NCBI GenBank assembly: GCA_023954475.1
Contig: JAMLHW010000001.1
Location: 310,001 to 374,000 of the forward strand
Direction of reading: 5' to 3'
Source of the DNA: Anaerolineae bacterium
Lineage (GTDB): Bacteria; Chloroflexota; Anaerolineae; Promineifilales; Promineifilaceae
Length of the DNA: 64,000 bases
The translations under genes were made by a program, and so were the position numbers. This document shows, piece after piece, positions 31,017 to 40,411 of the stretch (position 1 is the stretch's first letter; each line of letters begins with the position of its first letter). The notes under the pieces were generated by a model. The model had not been told where the DNA came from. It did no database searches and saw nothing but the letters and a program-made list of their open reading frames with translations.

Positions 31017-31088
31017 ATTATACGGAGGATGGTCTGCATCGCCAATGTTGTAAGCACAGCAGTTATGAATATGGTACTATCAGATGCA

Positions 31089-31820
31089 ATGAATGCAGAC
31101 AGCTTGGAAATTCTGTTGAAATGTGATTTTTTATACGGTCTTTCGCACGATGCGCGACTGGCATTTCTGGCTGCCGGTCGCAAAAGGCACATTGAACCGG
31201 GTGTATTTTTGTTTAATCAGGATGAACCGGCAACTGTCTTTTATTTGTTGCTGTCTGGTATTGTGCGATTGGCGCAGGTGACGCCTGAAGGACATCAGGT
31301 GATTGTCCATCACGTCACGCCTGGGGAAGGGATTGGCATTATCGTTGTGCTCAGTAATATGCCTTATCCGGTTTCGGCCGAAACGCTCGAAGCGTGCGTA
31401 CTGCTCAGCTACGACGCTGAAACGACGCGGCAGCTCATGCTTCAATACCCTCAATTGGCGATCAATGGAATGGAATTGGTTGCTCAGCATTTTGTACAGG
31501 TTTCCGCTCGCTTTCGCGAACTGGCTACTCAGCGTGTCGAAAGGCGCATCGCCCATGCCATTTTGCGGCTCGTGCGGCAGGTTGGCGTCAGGACCGACGC
31601 AGGTATCTTGCTCGATGTCCCTCTTTCACGCCAGGATTTAGCCGAGATGACCGGCACAACCCTCTACACGACCAGTCGTGTTTTGTCGCAATGGGAAAAA
31701 CTAGGCTGGATCAAAACTGGTCGCGAACAAGTGACACTGTTACAACCGCATGAACTCGTTGCCATCGCCGAGGATTTGCCCACCAACAATCCGGTAGCCA
31801 AGTCAACGCTCCCGGGCTAA
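31089..31820 (+). CDS. Crp/Fnr-family transcriptional regulator (probable nos activator)
   Basis: The 243-residue protein has an N-terminal cyclic-nucleotide-binding-like barrel (residues about 5-120: HIEPGVFLFNQDEPATVFYLLLSGIVRLAQVTPEGHQVIVHHVTPGEGIG), a long dimerisation helix and a C-terminal winged helix (LSRQDLAEMTGTTLYTTSRVLSQWEKLGWIKTG). The recognition helix keeps the Ser-Arg of Fnr proteins, but the usual Glu is Tyr (TLYTTSR). There is no N-terminal Cys cluster for an FeS centre, so it is closer to NO-sensing DNR/NNR-like or effector-less members. Alternative start: ATG 31071. It lies 157 bp before nosZ, and a perfect Fnr-type palindrome sits between them. Confidence 0.88.
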   Translation: MNADSLEILLKCDFLYGLSHDARLAFLAAGRKRHIEPGVFLFNQDEPATVFYLLLSGIVRLAQVTPEGHQVIVHHVTPGEGIGIIVVLSNMPYPVSAETLEACVLLSYDAETTRQLMLQYPQLAINGMELVAQHFVQVSARFRELATQRVERRIAHAILRLVRQVGVRTDAGILLDVPLSRQDLAEMTGTTLYTTSRVLSQWEKLGWIKTGREQVTLLQPHELVAIAEDLPTNNPVAKSTLPG

Positions 31821-31857: not shown

Positions 31858-31899
31858 TTGCGCTAGCGCAAAGAAGTAACGCCGCATCTCCGGTACACT
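31858..31899 (+). promoter_or_regulatory. Fnr-type operator and promoter of nosZ
   Basis: TTGCGCTAGCGCAA (31858-31871) is a perfect 14-bp palindrome of the form TTGNN-N4-NNCAA recognised by Crp/Fnr-family regulators. A TACACT -10 hexamer follows at 31894-31899, which puts the transcription start near 31906. The palindrome centre then lies at -41.5, the exact class II activator position. The Crp/Fnr-like regulator encoded immediately upstream is the obvious candidate to bind it. Confidence 0.78.
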
Positions 31900-31977
31900 G
31901 TTGCTATTGGGAAGTGTATCCGCAGCATGATCGTGAGTCATCCTGCACCAAGTAACAACGCACAAGGAGATGCGACA

Positions 31978-33996
31978 GTGAAACTATACAAATTTCTTAG
32001 CCGCCCGTCCACAATCCTGTTATTGGTTGTGACGGTCATTGCTGTCTTCAGCTTTGTCAGCTGTAGTGACGGCGCAGACGAAGGAGCACTGGAATCAGCC
32101 GGATTATCGGCCGATGCCAGTGCCATTGCCGAAGCCCGTGGTCTCACCCCAGACGACGTGGCAGCGGCCCTCAAGACCTACACCCCTTCCGGCGTCCATG
32201 ACGAATACATCATGTTCGCCTCCGGCGGACACGGCGGTCAGGTTTACGTCATCGGCATGCCGTCGATGCGCATTATCAAACAAATCGCCGTGTTCACGCC
32301 TGAACCCTGGCAAGGCTACGGTTACGGTGCAGAAGGCACGATGGCAGTACTCGAACAGGGCGATGTCGAAGGTACCGACATTCGCTGGGGCGACACACAT
32401 CACCCGGCTCTCAGCGAAACCGCTGGCGATTACGACGGTCAGTTCCTCTTTATCAACGACAAAGCCAACGGCCGCGTTGCCGTAATTGATCTCAAAGACT
32501 TTGAAACCAAGCAACTTGTCAAGAACCCCATCGCACTCGGTGATCACGGCGGCACTTTTGCCACCCCCGACACCGATTGGGTGATCGAAGGCGGGCAATA
32601 CGGCGCACCTCTCGGCTGGGAATACGCCTCGATCAACGATTACCAGCAAGATTATCGCGGCATGATCACGTTCTGGAAGTTTGACCGCGACGCAGGACGC
32701 ATTGACGTCGATTCATCCTTCGCCATCGAACTGCCGCCCTATTGGCAAGACCTGTGCGATGCCGGCAAGCTGGCCAGTGACGGCTGGATTTTCTGCAACT
32801 CGTTCAATACTGAAATGGCAACCGGCGGTGTCGAAGACGGTAACCCGCCGTTCGAAGCCGGTGCATCACAGAACGACATGGACTATCTGCACATTTTCGA
32901 CAAGAACAAGGCAATCGAAGTGGCTGCAGCAGGCAAAACTATCGACGTACAAGGCTTCCCGGTGATCCCGTTGGATACAGCCGTAGCGGAAGGCATCCTC
33001 TACTTTGCGCCGGAACCCAAAAGTCCGCACGGTGTGGACGTTACGCCTGACGGCAACTTCCTGACCGTTTCCGGTAAACTCGACCCCCACGTGAGCATCT
33101 ACAGTTTCGAGAAAATTCAGGAAGCCATCGCTGCCGGCAACTTCACCTATGACAATTACGGTGTACCGATTCTGGCATTTGACGATGTCGTAGAAGCACA
33201 GATCGAGGTCGGTCTTGGCCCACTGCACACGCAATACGACGACAAGGGCTATGCCTACACCAGCCTCTTCCTCGAACCGGCCGTCGCACGCTGGACACTC
33301 GGTGGCGACTTCTCTGATCTGCACGAAGAAGAAGATTGGACACTGGTTACGAAGACTCCGGTTCAGTACAACGTCGGTCACATCGCCGCCGCCGAAGGTG
33401 ACACAGTCAGCCCGGACGGACGCTATCTGGTCTCGATGAACAAGTGGGCTATTGACCGCTTTGCCAACGTTGGCCCGTTGCTGCCGCAAAACTTCCAATT
33501 GCTGGACATCAACGACCCCGGCACAAACATGCCGGTGATCTACGACTTGCCCATTCCGGATGGCGAGCCACACTATGCCCAAATCATCAAGGCCGACAAG
33601 CTCAGCCCGTGGGAAGTCTATCCGGAAATCGGTTGGAACCCTCACACCAATTCGGTTGATCCCAATGCGGTTCAACTGGGTGAGGAGCGCGTTGAGCGCA
33701 ACGGCAATGAGGTCGAAGTCTGGATGACGGCAGTGCGCAGCCACTTCACGCCGGAACACGTCAACATCAAGAAGGGCGATCATGTTGTCTGGCACATTAC
33801 CAACGTGGAACGGGCGTATGATGCGACGCACGGCTTCTCAATTCCGTACTACAACATCAACCTGAGCATTGAGCCGGGTGAAGCGGTGACGTTTGAGTTT
33901 GACGCGACTGAAGACGGTGTTTTCTCGTACTACTGCACTGAGTTCTGCTCGGCGCTGCATCTCGAGATGACCGGGTATATGTTGATCGAGCCGTAG
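31978..33996 (+). CDS. nosZ: Nitrous oxide reductase, clade II, Sec/lipoprotein type
   Basis: The 672-residue protein starts at GTG 31978, eight bases after AAGGAG; longer frames from 31927 lack a ribosome site. The N-terminus is a Sec signal with a lipobox-like FVSC, not a Tat signal, as in clade II enzymes. The beta-propeller has the His-rich CuZ motifs (ASGGHGGQVYVIG, GDTHHPALSETAGDYDGQ, LGDHGGTF, GLGPLHTQYDDKG, GEPHYAQII). The C-terminal cupredoxin carries the CuA site: C-TEF-C-SAL-H-LE-M near 33943-33975. It reduces N2O to N2 outside the membrane. It heads a nos cluster with maturation genes downstream, and has only one TCGGCCGA copy, at its 5' end. Confidence 0.96.
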   Translation: MKLYKFLSRPSTILLLVVTVIAVFSFVSCSDGADEGALESAGLSADASAIAEARGLTPDDVAAALKTYTPSGVHDEYIMFASGGHGGQVYVIGMPSMRIIKQIAVFTPEPWQGYGYGAEGTMAVLEQGDVEGTDIRWGDTHHPALSETAGDYDGQFLFINDKANGRVAVIDLKDFETKQLVKNPIALGDHGGTFATPDTDWVIEGGQYGAPLGWEYASINDYQQDYRGMITFWKFDRDAGRIDVDSSFAIELPPYWQDLCDAGKLASDGWIFCNSFNTEMATGGVEDGNPPFEAGASQNDMDYLHIFDKNKAIEVAAAGKTIDVQGFPVIPLDTAVAEGILYFAPEPKSPHGVDVTPDGNFLTVSGKLDPHVSIYSFEKIQEAIAAGNFTYDNYGVPILAFDDVVEAQIEVGLGPLHTQYDDKGYAYTSLFLEPAVARWTLGGDFSDLHEEEDWTLVTKTPVQYNVGHIAAAEGDTVSPDGRYLVSMNKWAIDRFANVGPLLPQNFQLLDINDPGTNMPVIYDLPIPDGEPHYAQIIKADKLSPWEVYPEIGWNPHTNSVDPNAVQLGEERVERNGNEVEVWMTAVRSHFTPEHVNIKKGDHVVWHITNVERAYDATHGFSIPYYNINLSIEPGEAVTFEFDATEDGVFSYYCTEFCSALHLEMTGYMLIEP

Positions 33997-34141: not shown

Positions 34142-34798
34142 ATGACTACCATGAGTGTTTTTAAGAGATTTGTCGGACCGCGTATTCCTGAAGGCTTATC
34201 TACTACAGATCGCAGACGATTTGTTATTCCGATTGCCCTGTTTGTGGTTGCGGCGGGATTGTTGATCGTGTCTATTTTTTTACCGTACTGGGAAATGACA
34301 CTGCTGGCACCGCAATATCCGAAAGGCTTGCACCTGACGGCCTATGCCAATCGGCTGACCGGCGACATATTTGAAATCGATGGTCTGAATCATTACATTG
34401 GTATGCGGCCTCTGGATGAAGCGGCGCAATTTGAGAAGTCGGTAAGCGTGATTGGCATTGTGGCGCTGGTGATGTTGCTGTTGGCAGCGGTGTATGTCCA
34501 CACAAAATGGGTTGTGCTGCTTGTCTTACCGGCCATTCTGATGCCACTTGTATTTCTGGTCGATTTGCAGTGGTGGTTGTGGAAGTTTGGCACAGACCTG
34601 GACCCTGCCGCGCCACTCAGTTCGGCTATTAAGCCATTTGTGCCTTCGGTTTTGGGACGCGGTGTTATTGCACAGTTTGAGACAGTGGCTACGCCTGGTA
34701 TCGGCTTGTGGCTGGCAATTCTGGCTTCGATCTTGATCATTGTGGGGCTGTATTACCACCGCAAAGCGTATAAGCCGCTGGCGGATATGGCAGCTTGA
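34142..34798 (+). CDS. NosB-like membrane protein of the nos cluster
   Basis: The protein of about 218 residues has four membrane segments (about residues 22-42, 108-128, 132-152 and 190-212) and a long extracytoplasmic loop YWEMTLLAPQYPKGLHLTAYANRLTGDIFEIDGLNHYIGM. Its place directly after nosZ and before nosD matches nosB of clade II clusters such as in Wolinella, a membrane protein needed for N2O respiration but of unknown mechanism. The NHYIGM loop with His and Met could contact copper or quinone, which is speculative. Start at ATG 34142 or 34151 (MSVFKRF). Confidence 0.72.
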   Translation: MTTMSVFKRFVGPRIPEGLSTTDRRRFVIPIALFVVAAGLLIVSIFLPYWEMTLLAPQYPKGLHLTAYANRLTGDIFEIDGLNHYIGMRPLDEAAQFEKSVSVIGIVALVMLLLAAVYVHTKWVVLLVLPAILMPLVFLVDLQWWLWKFGTDLDPAAPLSSAIKPFVPSVLGRGVIAQFETVATPGIGLWLAILASILIIVGLYYHRKAYKPLADMAA

Positions 34799-34823: not shown

Positions 34824-36250
<1,427 letters not shown>

Positions 36251-36254
<4 letters not shown>

Positions 36255-37105
36255 TTGAAGTAGCCCATTTAACCAAGCGTTTCGGCCGATTACGAGCCGT
36301 CGATGATCTGTCATTCAACGTCGAAGAGGGCCAGGCTGTTGCCTTTTGGGGCGCCAACGGCGCAGGCAAGACTACCGTCATTCGCTGCCTGCTCAACCTG
36401 ATACCTTACGAAGGCGACATCACCGTCAGCGGCATCGACGTGCGGCGCAACGGCAAACAAGTACGCCAAACTGTCGGGTTTGTGCCTCAAGAGCTCAATT
36501 TTCACGACGACCTGACCATCGCCGAGACGATGACATTTTATGCCCGGCTCAAGAAAATTGAAACCGAGCACGACTTCACGCCGCTGCTCGACCGTCTCGA
36601 CCTGAGCCAACACGTCGCAAAACCGATCAGCGACCTCTCCGGTGGCATGAAACAGCGCCTTGCGCTGGCGCTGGCGCTGCAGGCCGACCCGCCGCTGCTC
36701 GTGCTGGATGAACCGACGGTCAATCTCGATATCCGCTCGCGTGACACCTTTATTCAACTGCTGTTGGAACTGAAACACGCCGGCAAGACGATGGTTTTCT
36801 CGTCGCACCGGCTGGAAGAAGTGACGGCACTGGCGGACCGGATTTTGCTGCTCGAGGCGGGCAAACTGGTCGTGGATTCACCTCCTGATCAGCTTGAACA
36901 GCAGCTTGGCTGGGAATCAACGCTGCATCTCTATCTGGCTCGCACAGCCATCCAACCGGCGCTGGACGCGTTGCAACAGCACGGCTTGCCGGTTGCCATG
37001 AACGGACGCGGTGTCCGCGTCCAGGTAGCACCGGGCAAGAAGGGCCAGGTGCTGCAGATGTTGTGTGAGGCCGGTGTCCAGGTCGACGATTTTACGGTGG
37101 AATAA
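36251..37105 (+). CDS. nosF: NosF ABC transporter ATPase
   Basis: The 284-residue ATPase has Walker A GANGAGKTT (residues about 34-42), Q-loop VGFVPQELNF, signature LSGGMKQRLALALAL, Walker B LLVLDEP and switch His FSSHRLEEV, all canonical. The C-terminal 70 residues form an accessory domain typical of NosF. It pairs with NosY to power transfer of a sulfur species or maturation factor to NosD. Start ATG overlaps the nosD stop (ATGA); two bases separate it from nosY. Confidence 0.95.
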
Positions 37106-37106
37106 T

Positions 37107-37940
37107 ATGTTAGATTTTGAAAACATTCTGGTTTTGACGCAGAAAGAGTTGTACGACGCACGGCGTAACCGCTGGTTTATGCTCTATGCGGTGGCGTTTA
37201 CGGGTTTGGCGCTGGGTTTGGCGTACATGGCGCTTTCGGGTGCGGGCAATTATGGGCTGGCGGGATTCGGCCGAACCAGTGCCAGCCTCATCAACCTCGT
37301 CCTGCTCATCGTGCCGCTGATGGGGCTGACGCTCGGTGCGCTCAGTCTGGCCGGTGAGCGGGAAAAAGGGACATTGATGTATCTCATGGCACAGCCAATC
37401 AGTCAGGCAGAGCTGTTGTTGGGTAAATTTGTCGGCTTGTCGCTGGCATTGATCGCTGCGCTGGGGATCGGCTTTGGCTTGACGGCGTTTGCAATTGCAC
37501 TCAATGGGGGTTCGGCCGAAATTGATACCTACCTCATCTTGATGGGTTTTGCCGTTGTGCTCGCCGTTGCCAGCCTCAGCCTCGGTTTTCTCATCTCCGC
37601 CGCCGTGCAGCGTGGCTCGACCGCCATCGGTCTGGCACTGTTTCTCTGGCTGCTACTCGTCTTCTTTGGCGATCTCGGTCTGATGGGCACGGCGCTGGTG
37701 CTGCAACTCGACGTACAACAACTGTTTCTGGCTGCACTGGTCAATCCGCTGCAACTGTTCAAGATCGCCGCCATTTCCGGCATTCGCAGCAACCTGGAAG
37801 TGCTGGGGCCGGCCGGCGTCTACGCCTTTCGCACATACGGCAGCGCCCTGCTGCCATTATTGCTCGGTTTACTGCTGCTCTGGGTCATCATCCCGCTGCT
37901 GCTGGCAACCTATCTTTTCAAAAAACGGGGAGTCTTGTAA
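37107..37940 (+). CDS. nosY: NosY ABC transporter permease
   Basis: The 277-residue protein has six membrane helices in the ABC-2 arrangement. It starts MLDFENILVLTQKELYDARRNRWFMLYAVAF, the amphipathic elbow helix of NosY, and contains LAGEREKGTLMYLMAQPISQAELLLGKFVGL, the coupling-helix motif of this family. ATG 37107 directly follows the nosF stop; an in-frame start at 37065 lies inside nosF and is not used. The stop codon overlaps the nosL start by one base. Confidence 0.94.
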   Translation: MLDFENILVLTQKELYDARRNRWFMLYAVAFTGLALGLAYMALSGAGNYGLAGFGRTSASLINLVLLIVPLMGLTLGALSLAGEREKGTLMYLMAQPISQAELLLGKFVGLSLALIAALGIGFGLTAFAIALNGGSAEIDTYLILMGFAVVLAVASLSLGFLISAAVQRGSTAIGLALFLWLLLVFFGDLGLMGTALVLQLDVQQLFLAALVNPLQLFKIAAISGIRSNLEVLGPAGVYAFRTYGSALLPLLLGLLLLWVIIPLLLATYLFKKRGVL

Positions 37941-38536
37941 TGAAAGAACGACAATTGCCGACGGGTAGAATCATCATCTTCTGGCTGGTAATCCTGGCAC
38001 TGGCTATCGGCCTGGCTGCGTGCAAGCAAGCCATCGATACGTCGGTAGCGCCAGAGATTATCGCCGGACAAGATGTGTGCGACCGTTGCGGCATGTTGAT
38101 CAGCGAAGAGAAATTCGCAGCCGCTTATTGGACGACAGATGGTGAACCACGCCGTTTTGACGACATCGGCGGCATGTTCGCCCACTACCACGAGGTTGGG
38201 GAGGATGTCGATACGTTTTGGGTGCACGATTATCTGACCGGTGAGTGGATTCGCGCTGAAGACGCGTCATATGTCCTCGATCCCAGCTTGACTACGCCGA
38301 TGGGGTTTGGCGTTGCCGCTTGTGCTGAGGAAGCGCAAGCCCAGGCGCTCGCTGCGGGACAGGAAGGTGCCGTTGTCGTCTCGTTTGCCGACATGATCGC
38401 CATTGCTGATGCAGGCGAGATGGAGGCGGGGTCGATGCGCCAGCACAATCCGGATCACGACCATGCTGCCGACATGGCAGACGAAGATCACATGTCCGGG
38501 ATGGAAATGGATCACGCAATGGAATCTGATAAGTAA
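37940..38536 (+). CDS. nosL: NosL copper-chaperone lipoprotein with His/Met-rich tail
   Basis: The 198-residue protein has a lipoprotein signal (LVILALAIGLAAC) and the NosL copper site CDRCGMLISEEKFAA, with the Cys-Gly-Met motif, followed by RRFDDIGGMFAHY. NosL delivers Cu(I) to apo-NosZ from the outer face of the membrane. Unusual here is a C-terminal tail of about 35 residues rich in His, Met and Asp (MRQHNPDHDHAADMADE, HMSGMEMDHAME), which looks like an additional copper-binding reservoir. The ATG overlaps the nosY stop by one base. Confidence 0.94.
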   Translation: MKERQLPTGRIIIFWLVILALAIGLAACKQAIDTSVAPEIIAGQDVCDRCGMLISEEKFAAAYWTTDGEPRRFDDIGGMFAHYHEVGEDVDTFWVHDYLTGEWIRAEDASYVLDPSLTTPMGFGVAACAEEAQAQALAAGQEGAVVVSFADMIAIADAGEMEAGSMRQHNPDHDHAADMADEDHMSGMEMDHAMESDK

Positions 38537-38601
38537 ATGAGCTAAAAGCCAAAGGCTGACAGCTAACAGCTCACGGCAAAAACAATCGAGGAGACATGTT
38601 T

Positions 38602-39036
38602 ATGAAAAGTTCAATAATTTGGTTAGGGACTCTACTTTTGGTGCTGATAATGGCGCTGGCTGCTTGCGGTGGCGATTCGGGTGGCGATAGCGCACCTGCG
38701 TCTGATGCGGGTAGCGCTGAGACATCGGCTTCGGCCGATACCAATTTGCCGACGGGTGATGTTGCTGCCGGCGAAGCCAAGTTTAACGAAGTGTGCATTG
38801 CCTGCCACGGTCCGGGAGGTGAAGGCGTCGAAGGACTCGGTAAACCGTTTACGACAAGTGATTTCGTCACCAGTCAAAGCGATGCTGAACTGCTGGCGTT
38901 TGTCAAAGTAGGCCGTCCTGTAGGTGATCCTGCTAACACGACCGGCATCGACATGCCTCCCAAAGGCGGTAATCCGGCGCTGACCGATCAACAACTCATG
39001 GATATCATCGCCTACATTCGGACATTGCACGAGTAA
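38602..39036 (+). CDS. Lipoprotein c-type cytochrome of the nos cluster
   Basis: The 144-residue protein has a lipoprotein signal (LVLIMALAACGGD), a low-complexity Ser/Ala/Asp linker to about residue 45, and one class I cytochrome c domain with heme motif CIACH and an axial Met in GIDMPPKGG. It ends IIAYIRTLHE, the normal last helix. It is likely the electron donor to NosZ, like the nosC cytochromes of clade II clusters. ATG 38602 is favoured because GAGGAG lies eight bases upstream; ATG 38596 is too close to it. Confidence 0.9.
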   Translation: MKSSIIWLGTLLLVLIMALAACGGDSGGDSAPASDAGSAETSASADTNLPTGDVAAGEAKFNEVCIACHGPGGEGVEGLGKPFTTSDFVTSQSDAELLAFVKVGRPVGDPANTTGIDMPPKGGNPALTDQQLMDIIAYIRTLHE

Positions 39037-39069
39037 ATGACAGAACAGATGGTGTGGGGAGCGTGCGCC

Positions 39070-39318
39070 ATGTTGGATGAGATCATTTTGGCTGATTTGA
39101 ATGTGGTAGACGTGATGAAACGCTGGCCGGCGACAATCGCCGTCTTCCAACAACATAAGATGGCTTGCGTCGGCTGCGCCGTGGCCCCGTTCTTCTCAGT
39201 GGCGAGAGCTGCCTCGATCTACAGTATTCCGGTTGAACAATTTGTGCAGGAGTTGGGGGAGGTGATTGCGTCGGCTGGGGTCGACACGATTTCGGCCGAT
39301 TCCAACTCCGCCTCCTGA
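39070..39318 (+). CDS. DUF1858-domain redox-disulfide protein
   Basis: The 82-residue protein consists of one DUF1858 domain: DLNVVDVMKRWPATIAVFQQHKMACVGCAVAPFFSVARAASIYSIPVEQFVQEL. The CVGC pair is the conserved feature of the family, which is also found at the N-terminus of iron-sulfur repair proteins (ScdA/Ric) and next to hybrid cluster proteins. ATG 39070 has GGGGAG at eight bases; the upstream ATG 39037 abuts the cytochrome stop without a good site. A link to nitrosative stress is inferred from the family and the neighbours. Confidence 0.85.
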   Translation: MLDEIILADLNVVDVMKRWPATIAVFQQHKMACVGCAVAPFFSVARAASIYSIPVEQFVQELGEVIASAGVDTISADSNSAS

Positions 39319-39331
39319 CCGTTTTTCCCTG

Positions 39332-40411
39332 ATGGAAAACGACAATTTACGCTATCCGGGACGGCTGATTATGCCGCTGGTGGTCGTAGCACTGCTGGCG
39401 GCATTGTGGGCCGGACTGCTGCGCCTGGGCTGGCGTTTGCCGCCGCTGCAGCCGCAATTGGCCGGAGCGCACGGACCGTTGATGGTCGTCGGTTTTCTCG
39501 GCACACTGATCGCCCTGGAGCGGGCCGTTGCGCTGCGCAAAACGTGGTGTCTGGCGGCACCGGTACTGATCGGCGTTGGTGCGCTCTTGCTGATCGTCGG
39601 CTGGGTGACGGCGGGTGCGGCATTGATGGTGTTGGGAAGTGGGGCGCTGGTGCTGGTTTCGGCCGATATGGTGCGGCAACATCCCGCCCTGCATACGTGG
39701 ACGATGGCGTCGGGTGCTGTTGCGCTGCTGGTGGGGACGTTGTTGTGGGCATTGGGTCGGCCGATTTTTGAAGCGAGCACCTGGTGGGCCGGTTTTCTCA
39801 TCCTCGTCATCGCCGGTGAACGGCTCGAATTGAGTCGGGTACTGCGCCTGACGCCGCGTCAACGCGCACTGTTTCTGATCGCCGTCGGTTTATTCGGCTT
39901 CGGTTTGATCGGTTCGCTGTTTGACTACGGCAGCGGCACGCGGCTGGCGAGTGTGGGCGTCATTGCCGTGGCGCTGTGGCTAATCGCGTTTGATTTGGCA
40001 CGACGCAATATACGCAAGAAAGGGCTGACGCGCTACATTGCAGTCAATTTACTTGTCGGCTATGTTTGGCTGGTGGTTAGCGGGGTGATTGGCGTCATTT
40101 ACACTCCGTTGATCGTCGGGCCGCTGTACGATGCGTGGCTGCACGCGTTGTTTCTGGGTTTTGTTTTTGGCATGATTTTTGCCCATGCGCCGATTATTTT
40201 GCCGGGGGTGACGGGGTTTGTGGTGGAGTATCGGCCGATTTTCTACCTGCCGCCCATTCTGCTCAACCTGTCGCTACTGTTGCGACTTGCCGGTGATTTT
40301 GCACCCAACCAAACGCTGCGTCAATGGGGCGGCCTGCTCAACGAAGTCGCCATTCTCGTTTTTGCAATGTTCATCGTGATTGCCATTTTGCGCGAGCGTA
40401 GCGTACGATAG
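39332..40411 (+). CDS. NnrS-like polytopic membrane protein
   Basis: The 359-residue protein has about eleven to twelve membrane helices. Conserved-looking His residues sit in LAGAHGPLMVVGFLGTLIALERAVAL (near residue 40) and YDAWLHALFLGFVFGMIFAHAPIILPGV (near residue 270), a pattern seen in NnrS and related heme- or copper-binding membrane proteins linked to nitrogen-oxide metabolism. It closes the nos operon, starting 13 bases after the DUF1858 gene. The assignment to NnrS is by resemblance and context. Confidence 0.65.
   Translation: MENDNLRYPGRLIMPLVVVALLAALWAGLLRLGWRLPPLQPQLAGAHGPLMVVGFLGTLIALERAVALRKTWCLAAPVLIGVGALLLIVGWVTAGAALMVLGSGALVLVSADMVRQHPALHTWTMASGAVALLVGTLLWALGRPIFEASTWWAGFLILVIAGERLELSRVLRLTPRQRALFLIAVGLFGFGLIGSLFDYGSGTRLASVGVIAVALWLIAFDLARRNIRKKGLTRYIAVNLLVGYVWLVVSGVIGVIYTPLIVGPLYDAWLHALFLGFVFGMIFAHAPIILPGVTGFVVEYRPIFYLPPILLNLSLLLRLAGDFAPNQTLRQWGGLLNEVAILVFAMFIVIAILRERSVR

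Follow-up and report, generated by a model that had tools for sequence, protein, structure and literature searches.

The window analysed here, a stretch of 64,000 nucleotides from an Anaerolineae bacterium (Promineifilaceae, Chloroflexota), contains a nos locus, encoded entirely on the + strand and preceded by a gene for a Crp/Fnr-superfamily regulator, hereafter P0001. The first nos gene, nosZ (31978..33996), encodes a Sec-dependent (clade II) nitrous-oxide reductase (TIGR04246, 835 bits with a cut-off of 625) and is followed by a gene for a membrane protein of unknown family (34148..34798), nosD (34824..36254; PF05048, TIGR04247), genes for a nosF-like ABC ATPase (36251..37105; PF00005) and a nosY-like ABC permease (37104..37940; PF12679), nosL (37940..38536; PF05573), a cytochrome c gene (38596..39036; PF00034) and a gene for a DUF1858 redox-disulfide protein (39037..39318; PF08984, TIGR03980), a typical neighbour of NnrR that is also found in Azospirillum. 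The multi-pass membrane protein encoded next (39326-40408) is NnrS-like by eye; it was not confirmed as NnrS, with no Pfam or NCBIfam match and no BLASTP match to the Azospirillum NnrS. For nosZ, the most plausible start codon is GTG 31978, which is preceded by the ribosome-binding site AAGGAG (31964..31969) and gives a lipoprotein-like N-terminus, MKLYKFLSRPSTILLLVVTVIAVFSFVSC; the ATG at 31927 has no ribosome-binding site and was rejected, so that the leader is about 72 nt long.

Between the regulator gene and nosZ lies a perfect 14-bp palindrome, TTGCGCTAGCGCAA (31858..31871, read from the window sequence), which is the predicted regulator site by its sequence, footprint and spacing. Exactly 22 nt past it is the -10 hexamer TACACT (31894..31899, + strand); if transcription starts 7 nt past this hexamer, at 31906 (+ strand), the palindrome is centred at about -41.5. 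A search for sigma-70-type promoters on the + strand found none, and there is no -35 box; the promoter therefore looks activator-dependent. Class II CRP/FNR promoters, at which the protein acts as an activator, classically have a site at -41.5 and lack a -35 box, and the nosZ promoter, judged from the inferred start, appears to follow this pattern. A sequence-only reading of this DNA had described a mismatch-free palindrome at -41.5 before nosZ and a Crp/Fnr-family gene ending 37 bp upstream of it; the coordinates, the 22-nt spacing to TACACT and the end of the ORF at 31820 bear out both statements. A second identical 14-mer (G000:C3:154952; L008:1501) is intergenic and lies ahead of an unknown ORF of secreted type; TAGCAT follows it at 24 nt, so that the 22-nt spacing is missing, and it was set aside.

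The regulator gene (31071..31820, + strand, start assumed at ATG 31071) encodes a protein of 249 amino acids with cNMP_binding and HTH_Crp_2 domains (Pfam); an NCBIfam search with P0001 gave no family above cut-off, and its description as NnrR-like draws on Pfam, its clade and the helix alignment. The recognition helix, GTTLYTTSR, spans residues 195-203, equivalences to CRP and FNR being those of a sequence alignment. P0001 shares with DNR/NNR, FNR and FixK2 the Crp/Fnr fold, sites at -41.5 and a 14-bp TTG...CAA palindrome. It differs from FNR in that it has two cysteines only, C18 and C108, and lacks the N-terminal cysteine cluster that FNR requires for its [4Fe-4S] centre, and in that Y199 takes the place of the Glu (FNR 209, CRP E181) seen in the aligned FNR sequence; DNR/NNR and FixK2 also have Glu at this position. 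The half-sites differ as well: DNR/NNR and FNR read TTGAT and FixK2 reads TTGA/C, whereas the P0001 site has TTGCG. T201 (window 31671-31673), within TLYTTSR, is replaced by V, A or I in the relatives that were compared.

Within its own genome, the nosZ site is near chance, which is insufficient as proof. In the 5.12 Mb genome, the bare palindrome pattern has 21 matches, almost always within ORFs, compared with 11 for the reversed control; the only palindrome with a -10 element at 22 nt is the one at nosZ, compared with two control matches; and composites with one mismatch allowed number 10 compared with nine. Being this close to the reversed control, the counts make the site unprovable from one genome, and bare motif counts are uninformative as evidence. 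On such counts, the palindrome could be a chance match or have another role, for example, as a hairpin in the 3' region of the regulator gene.

The comparative evidence decisively places the site beyond chance. NosZ homologues are encoded in 84 of the 396 genomes of the class, and 75 usable nosZ upstream regions, from several families, formed the footprint sample. The palindrome, defined as TTGC[G/A]-N4-[C/T]GCAA, is present in 25 of the 75 regions, and the composite (palindrome, 22 nt, TAnnnT) in 24, with about two thirds of the regions lacking the motif within the searched stretch; 200 first-order Markov resamplings of the same regions yielded a mean of 0.5 palindromes and not a single composite. 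The -10 element is 22 nt away in 24 of the 25 nosZ palindrome cases and in 56 of the 64 sites downstream of a regulator gene, any other spacing accounting for at most four cases, and the flanks of the palindrome (T before, AGA after) are conserved as well. For the family, the simulations and the fixed spacing at 24 nosZ promoters refute a chance origin or an unrelated role, and for the nosZ site of the window we regard such an explanation as scarcely credible.

The site is linked to the regulator. Relatives of P0001 (E <= 1e-30) are encoded in 117 of the 396 genomes; nosZ follows the regulator gene at up to about 3 kb in 24 loci, every one of which has the composite in the intervening stretch. 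A regulator is encoded in 22 of the 24 genomes with a motif-bearing nosZ, compared with about 33 of 60 motif-free ones (hand tally; Fisher p 0.0018). When the regulator gene is away from nosZ, the composite precedes nirK-, nrfH-, DUF1858- or DUF2249/hemerythrin-type genes; the products of the targets include copper nitrite reductase-like proteins (TIGR02376, 286 and 220 bits for partial queries, cut-off 296) and NrfH (TIGR03153, with one score above the cut-off and one below it). It is solely through this promoter linkage that control of nitrogen-oxide genes by these regulators is suggested. The same composite was also seen before nirK-type copper nitrite reductase genes at six loci of other Chloroflexota (L122, L126, L130, L132, L135 and L083) and, at L100, before an octaheme hydroxylamine/hydrazine dehydrogenase-like gene with an adjacent NnrR-like regulator.

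The sequence-only reading had called the palindrome Fnr-type, which we revise to NnrR-like because the half-site TTGCG is that of the published NnrR motif, ctTTGcgnnnncgCAAag (Rodionov et al. 2005, PMC1274295); the window site, TTGCGCTAGCGCAAAG, and the 24 composites at nosZ conform to this motif. Sites of NnrR-dependent genes in Bradyrhizobium include TTGCGTCGGCGCAA and TTGCGCTATCGCAA (PMC6710368), and NnrR is known in Sinorhizobium meliloti (PMC4064527). The closest annotated relatives of P0001 outside Chloroflexota are alphaproteobacterial; among these, the Azospirillum protein is encoded next to NnrS, DUF1858 and DUF2249 genes, and the one from S. meliloti pSymA, the record of which bears no locus name, is taken to be NnrR. 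The alphaproteobacterial NnrR proteins (Rhodobacter, Bradyrhizobium, Sinorhizobium) are 38-48% identical to P0001 and share with it the motif ctTTGcgnnnncgCAAag and the helix T-L-[H/Y]-T-x-S-R; DUF1858/DUF2249/NnrS neighbours and nitrogen-oxide targets are common to them and the Chloroflexota regulators. The motif, the helix (TTL[H/Y]T-SR), the neighbour genes and the targets all match those of alphaproteobacterial NnrR. The alphaproteobacterial relatives have the helix GTTLHTVSR, compared with GTTLYTVSR as the usual Chloroflexota form, and the NnrR-type proteins with TTLHTVSR go with TTGCG sites; P0001 differs in having Y rather than H at helix position 181 and in apparently being dedicated to a single clade II nos operon.

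In phylogenetic analysis, P0001, the S. meliloti protein and other alphaproteobacterial NnrR-type proteins form one clade (support 96/97), from which the long-branched outgroups, E. coli FNR, CRP and the paralogues of P0001 from its own genome, are excluded (DNR was not part of this tree). The classical His-helix NnrR proteins, together with two Planctomycetota proteins, form a subclade (97/95) that excludes P0001, which groups with Chloroflexota proteins. P0001 is a member of an NnrR-like clade that spans several phyla, and its place there is not within the classical His-helix subclade. NnrR-like regulators are also present in Acidobacteriota, Planctomycetota, Latescibacterota, Desulfobacteria and Myxococcota, several of them with a TTGCG site nearby.

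The combination of Tyr in place of Glu with TTGCG in place of TTGAT had been read as a possible matched change of specificity. The substitution is present, but because it is family-wide (with His in proteobacterial NnrR and Phe in some proteins), Tyr199 marks the family and was rejected as a local change; the finer matched change lies at T197, T200 and base 5 of the half-site and is found in relatives rather than in the genome studied here. Many relatives in the family of the window have TTGCA-N4-TGCAA sites with the helix GTN[LIVA][YF][NQ]VSR, and others have TTGCG with GTTLYTVSR; L058, L061, L065, L070, L074 and L084 are among the loci where a GTN.Y[NQ]VSR helix was seen beside TTGCA-N4-TGCAA. 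Among 61 regulator loci, 32 of the 33 with a T197-type helix have a TTGCG site and the remaining one is mixed; of those with an N-type helix (N at 197 with N/Q/S at 200), 22 have TTGCA, four have mixed sites and two have TTGCG. No other column of the protein shares as much mutual information with the site as T200 and T197. In four genomes (G181, G290, G403 and G160), the two helix types occur together, and each has a matching site close by. The closest nosZ relatives, in G378 and G388 (NosZ 87-91% identical), have TTGCA sites, and the adjacent regulator of G388 is N-type, compared with the T-type helix and TTGCG of the genome studied here. The two exceptions, L270 and L278, are sister loci with an N-type helix and a TTGCG site about 10 bp past the regulator gene. 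In both genomes there is another regulator locus that also has a TTGCG site; its helix is clearly T-type in G403 and unreadable in G402, and this second regulator could be the owner of the site at L270/L278. Downstream of the TTGCG site at these two loci, a DUF1858-like gene and a -10 element, CATAAT, at 22 nt were observed.

On a wider tree of 87 rows, the helix changes about three times and the site four to five times. The two to three independent helix-site pairs almost always change in the same direction; with so few pairs, the co-evolution test did not reach significance. With about three origins, the switch at T197/T200 is therefore suggestive, not significant, on the tree. We nevertheless think it fairly likely that, in Chloroflexota NnrR-like regulators, the replacement of T197 by N and of T200 by N/Q/S turned the G at base 5 into A, and TTGCG into TTGCA, with the promoters changing along and the two versions kept separate in some genomes. 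Asn/Gln at the corresponding CRP positions 179 and 182, together with A at base 5, would fit Asn/Gln-adenine contacts.

Taken together, these observations lead us to propose, with a probability of roughly 0.87, that the palindrome serves as operator in an activator-dependent (class II) nos promoter and is bound by the NnrR-like regulator encoded upstream. A P0001 homodimer would bind TTGCG-N4-CGCAA at -41.5 and recruit RNA polymerase to a promoter with a -10 element only. In CRP and FNR, R185 and R213, respectively, read the G of TTG, and E181 and E209 read the neighbouring pair; P0001 keeps the arginine (R203) and has Tyr for the Glu, and base 4 of its half-site is C, not A. By analogy, R203 would read the G of TTG, Y199 would stand in for the Glu that reads the TTGAT of FNR, and T197 and T200 would help to fix the fifth base as G. 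The signal would be NO or a related nitrogen oxide; NO itself is the default guess, carried over from NnrR. The footprint, the linkage and the helix-site correlation strongly support what had been proposed from the sequence, namely, that the adjacent regulator, with a specificity unlike that of FNR, acts as an activator from a site at -41.5.

Another Crp/Fnr protein, such as a global anaerobic regulator, might bind the site, the adjacent gene being a bystander: the genome encodes further Crp/Fnr-like proteins, and the motif is a generic palindrome of the Crp/Fnr type. These proteins, however, are merely 25-27% identical to P0001, the site accompanies every one of the 24 regulator-nosZ neighbours, regulators away from nosZ adjoin composites before other nitrogen-oxide genes, and base 5 follows the helix of the adjacent regulator itself, paralogues within one genome included, all of which makes such a bystander role unlikely. 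Still less probable, in our view, is repression of nosZ by the regulator through the palindrome: a Crp/Fnr regulator of Nitrosophilus has a negative effect on nosZ, inferred from expression correlations (PMC11539149), but here the -41.5 centre without a -35 box, the near-invariant spacing and the lack of a + strand sigma-70 promoter argue for activation by the NnrR-like protein.

A literature search, in which subscription papers were thinly covered, found no paper on NnrR or on nosZ promoters and their control in Chloroflexota; an NnrR-type nosZ regulator is apparently new to this phylum, the kind itself being known from proteobacteria, beyond which NnrR-like control would be extended. Crp/Fnr regulators are likewise linked to clade II nos genes in Wolinella (NssA/NssB) and, as homologues of these, in Nitrosophilus; they differ from P0001 in the sites searched (TTGA-N6-TCAA) and in a DNA-binding domain described as Dnr-type (PMC11539149). 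For many Chloroflexota, the present analysis offers concrete, testable candidates for the promoter and operator of nosZ and for its regulator. Clade II N2O reducers, Chloroflexota included, are sinks of the greenhouse gas N2O. A search of the genome for NirK and NrfA found neither (NirS and Nor lay outside this search), so that N2O reduction may be the sole process under the NnrR-like protein; in that case, one may ask which signal is sensed. The linked changes of helix and operator would constitute a natural specificity switch, and this TTGCG/TTGCA part is the likeliest to interest specialists. Rodionov et al. emphasise CRP positions 180 and 181 (PMC1274295); if the switch is real, T197 and T200 would add a recognition rule at positions 179 and 182.
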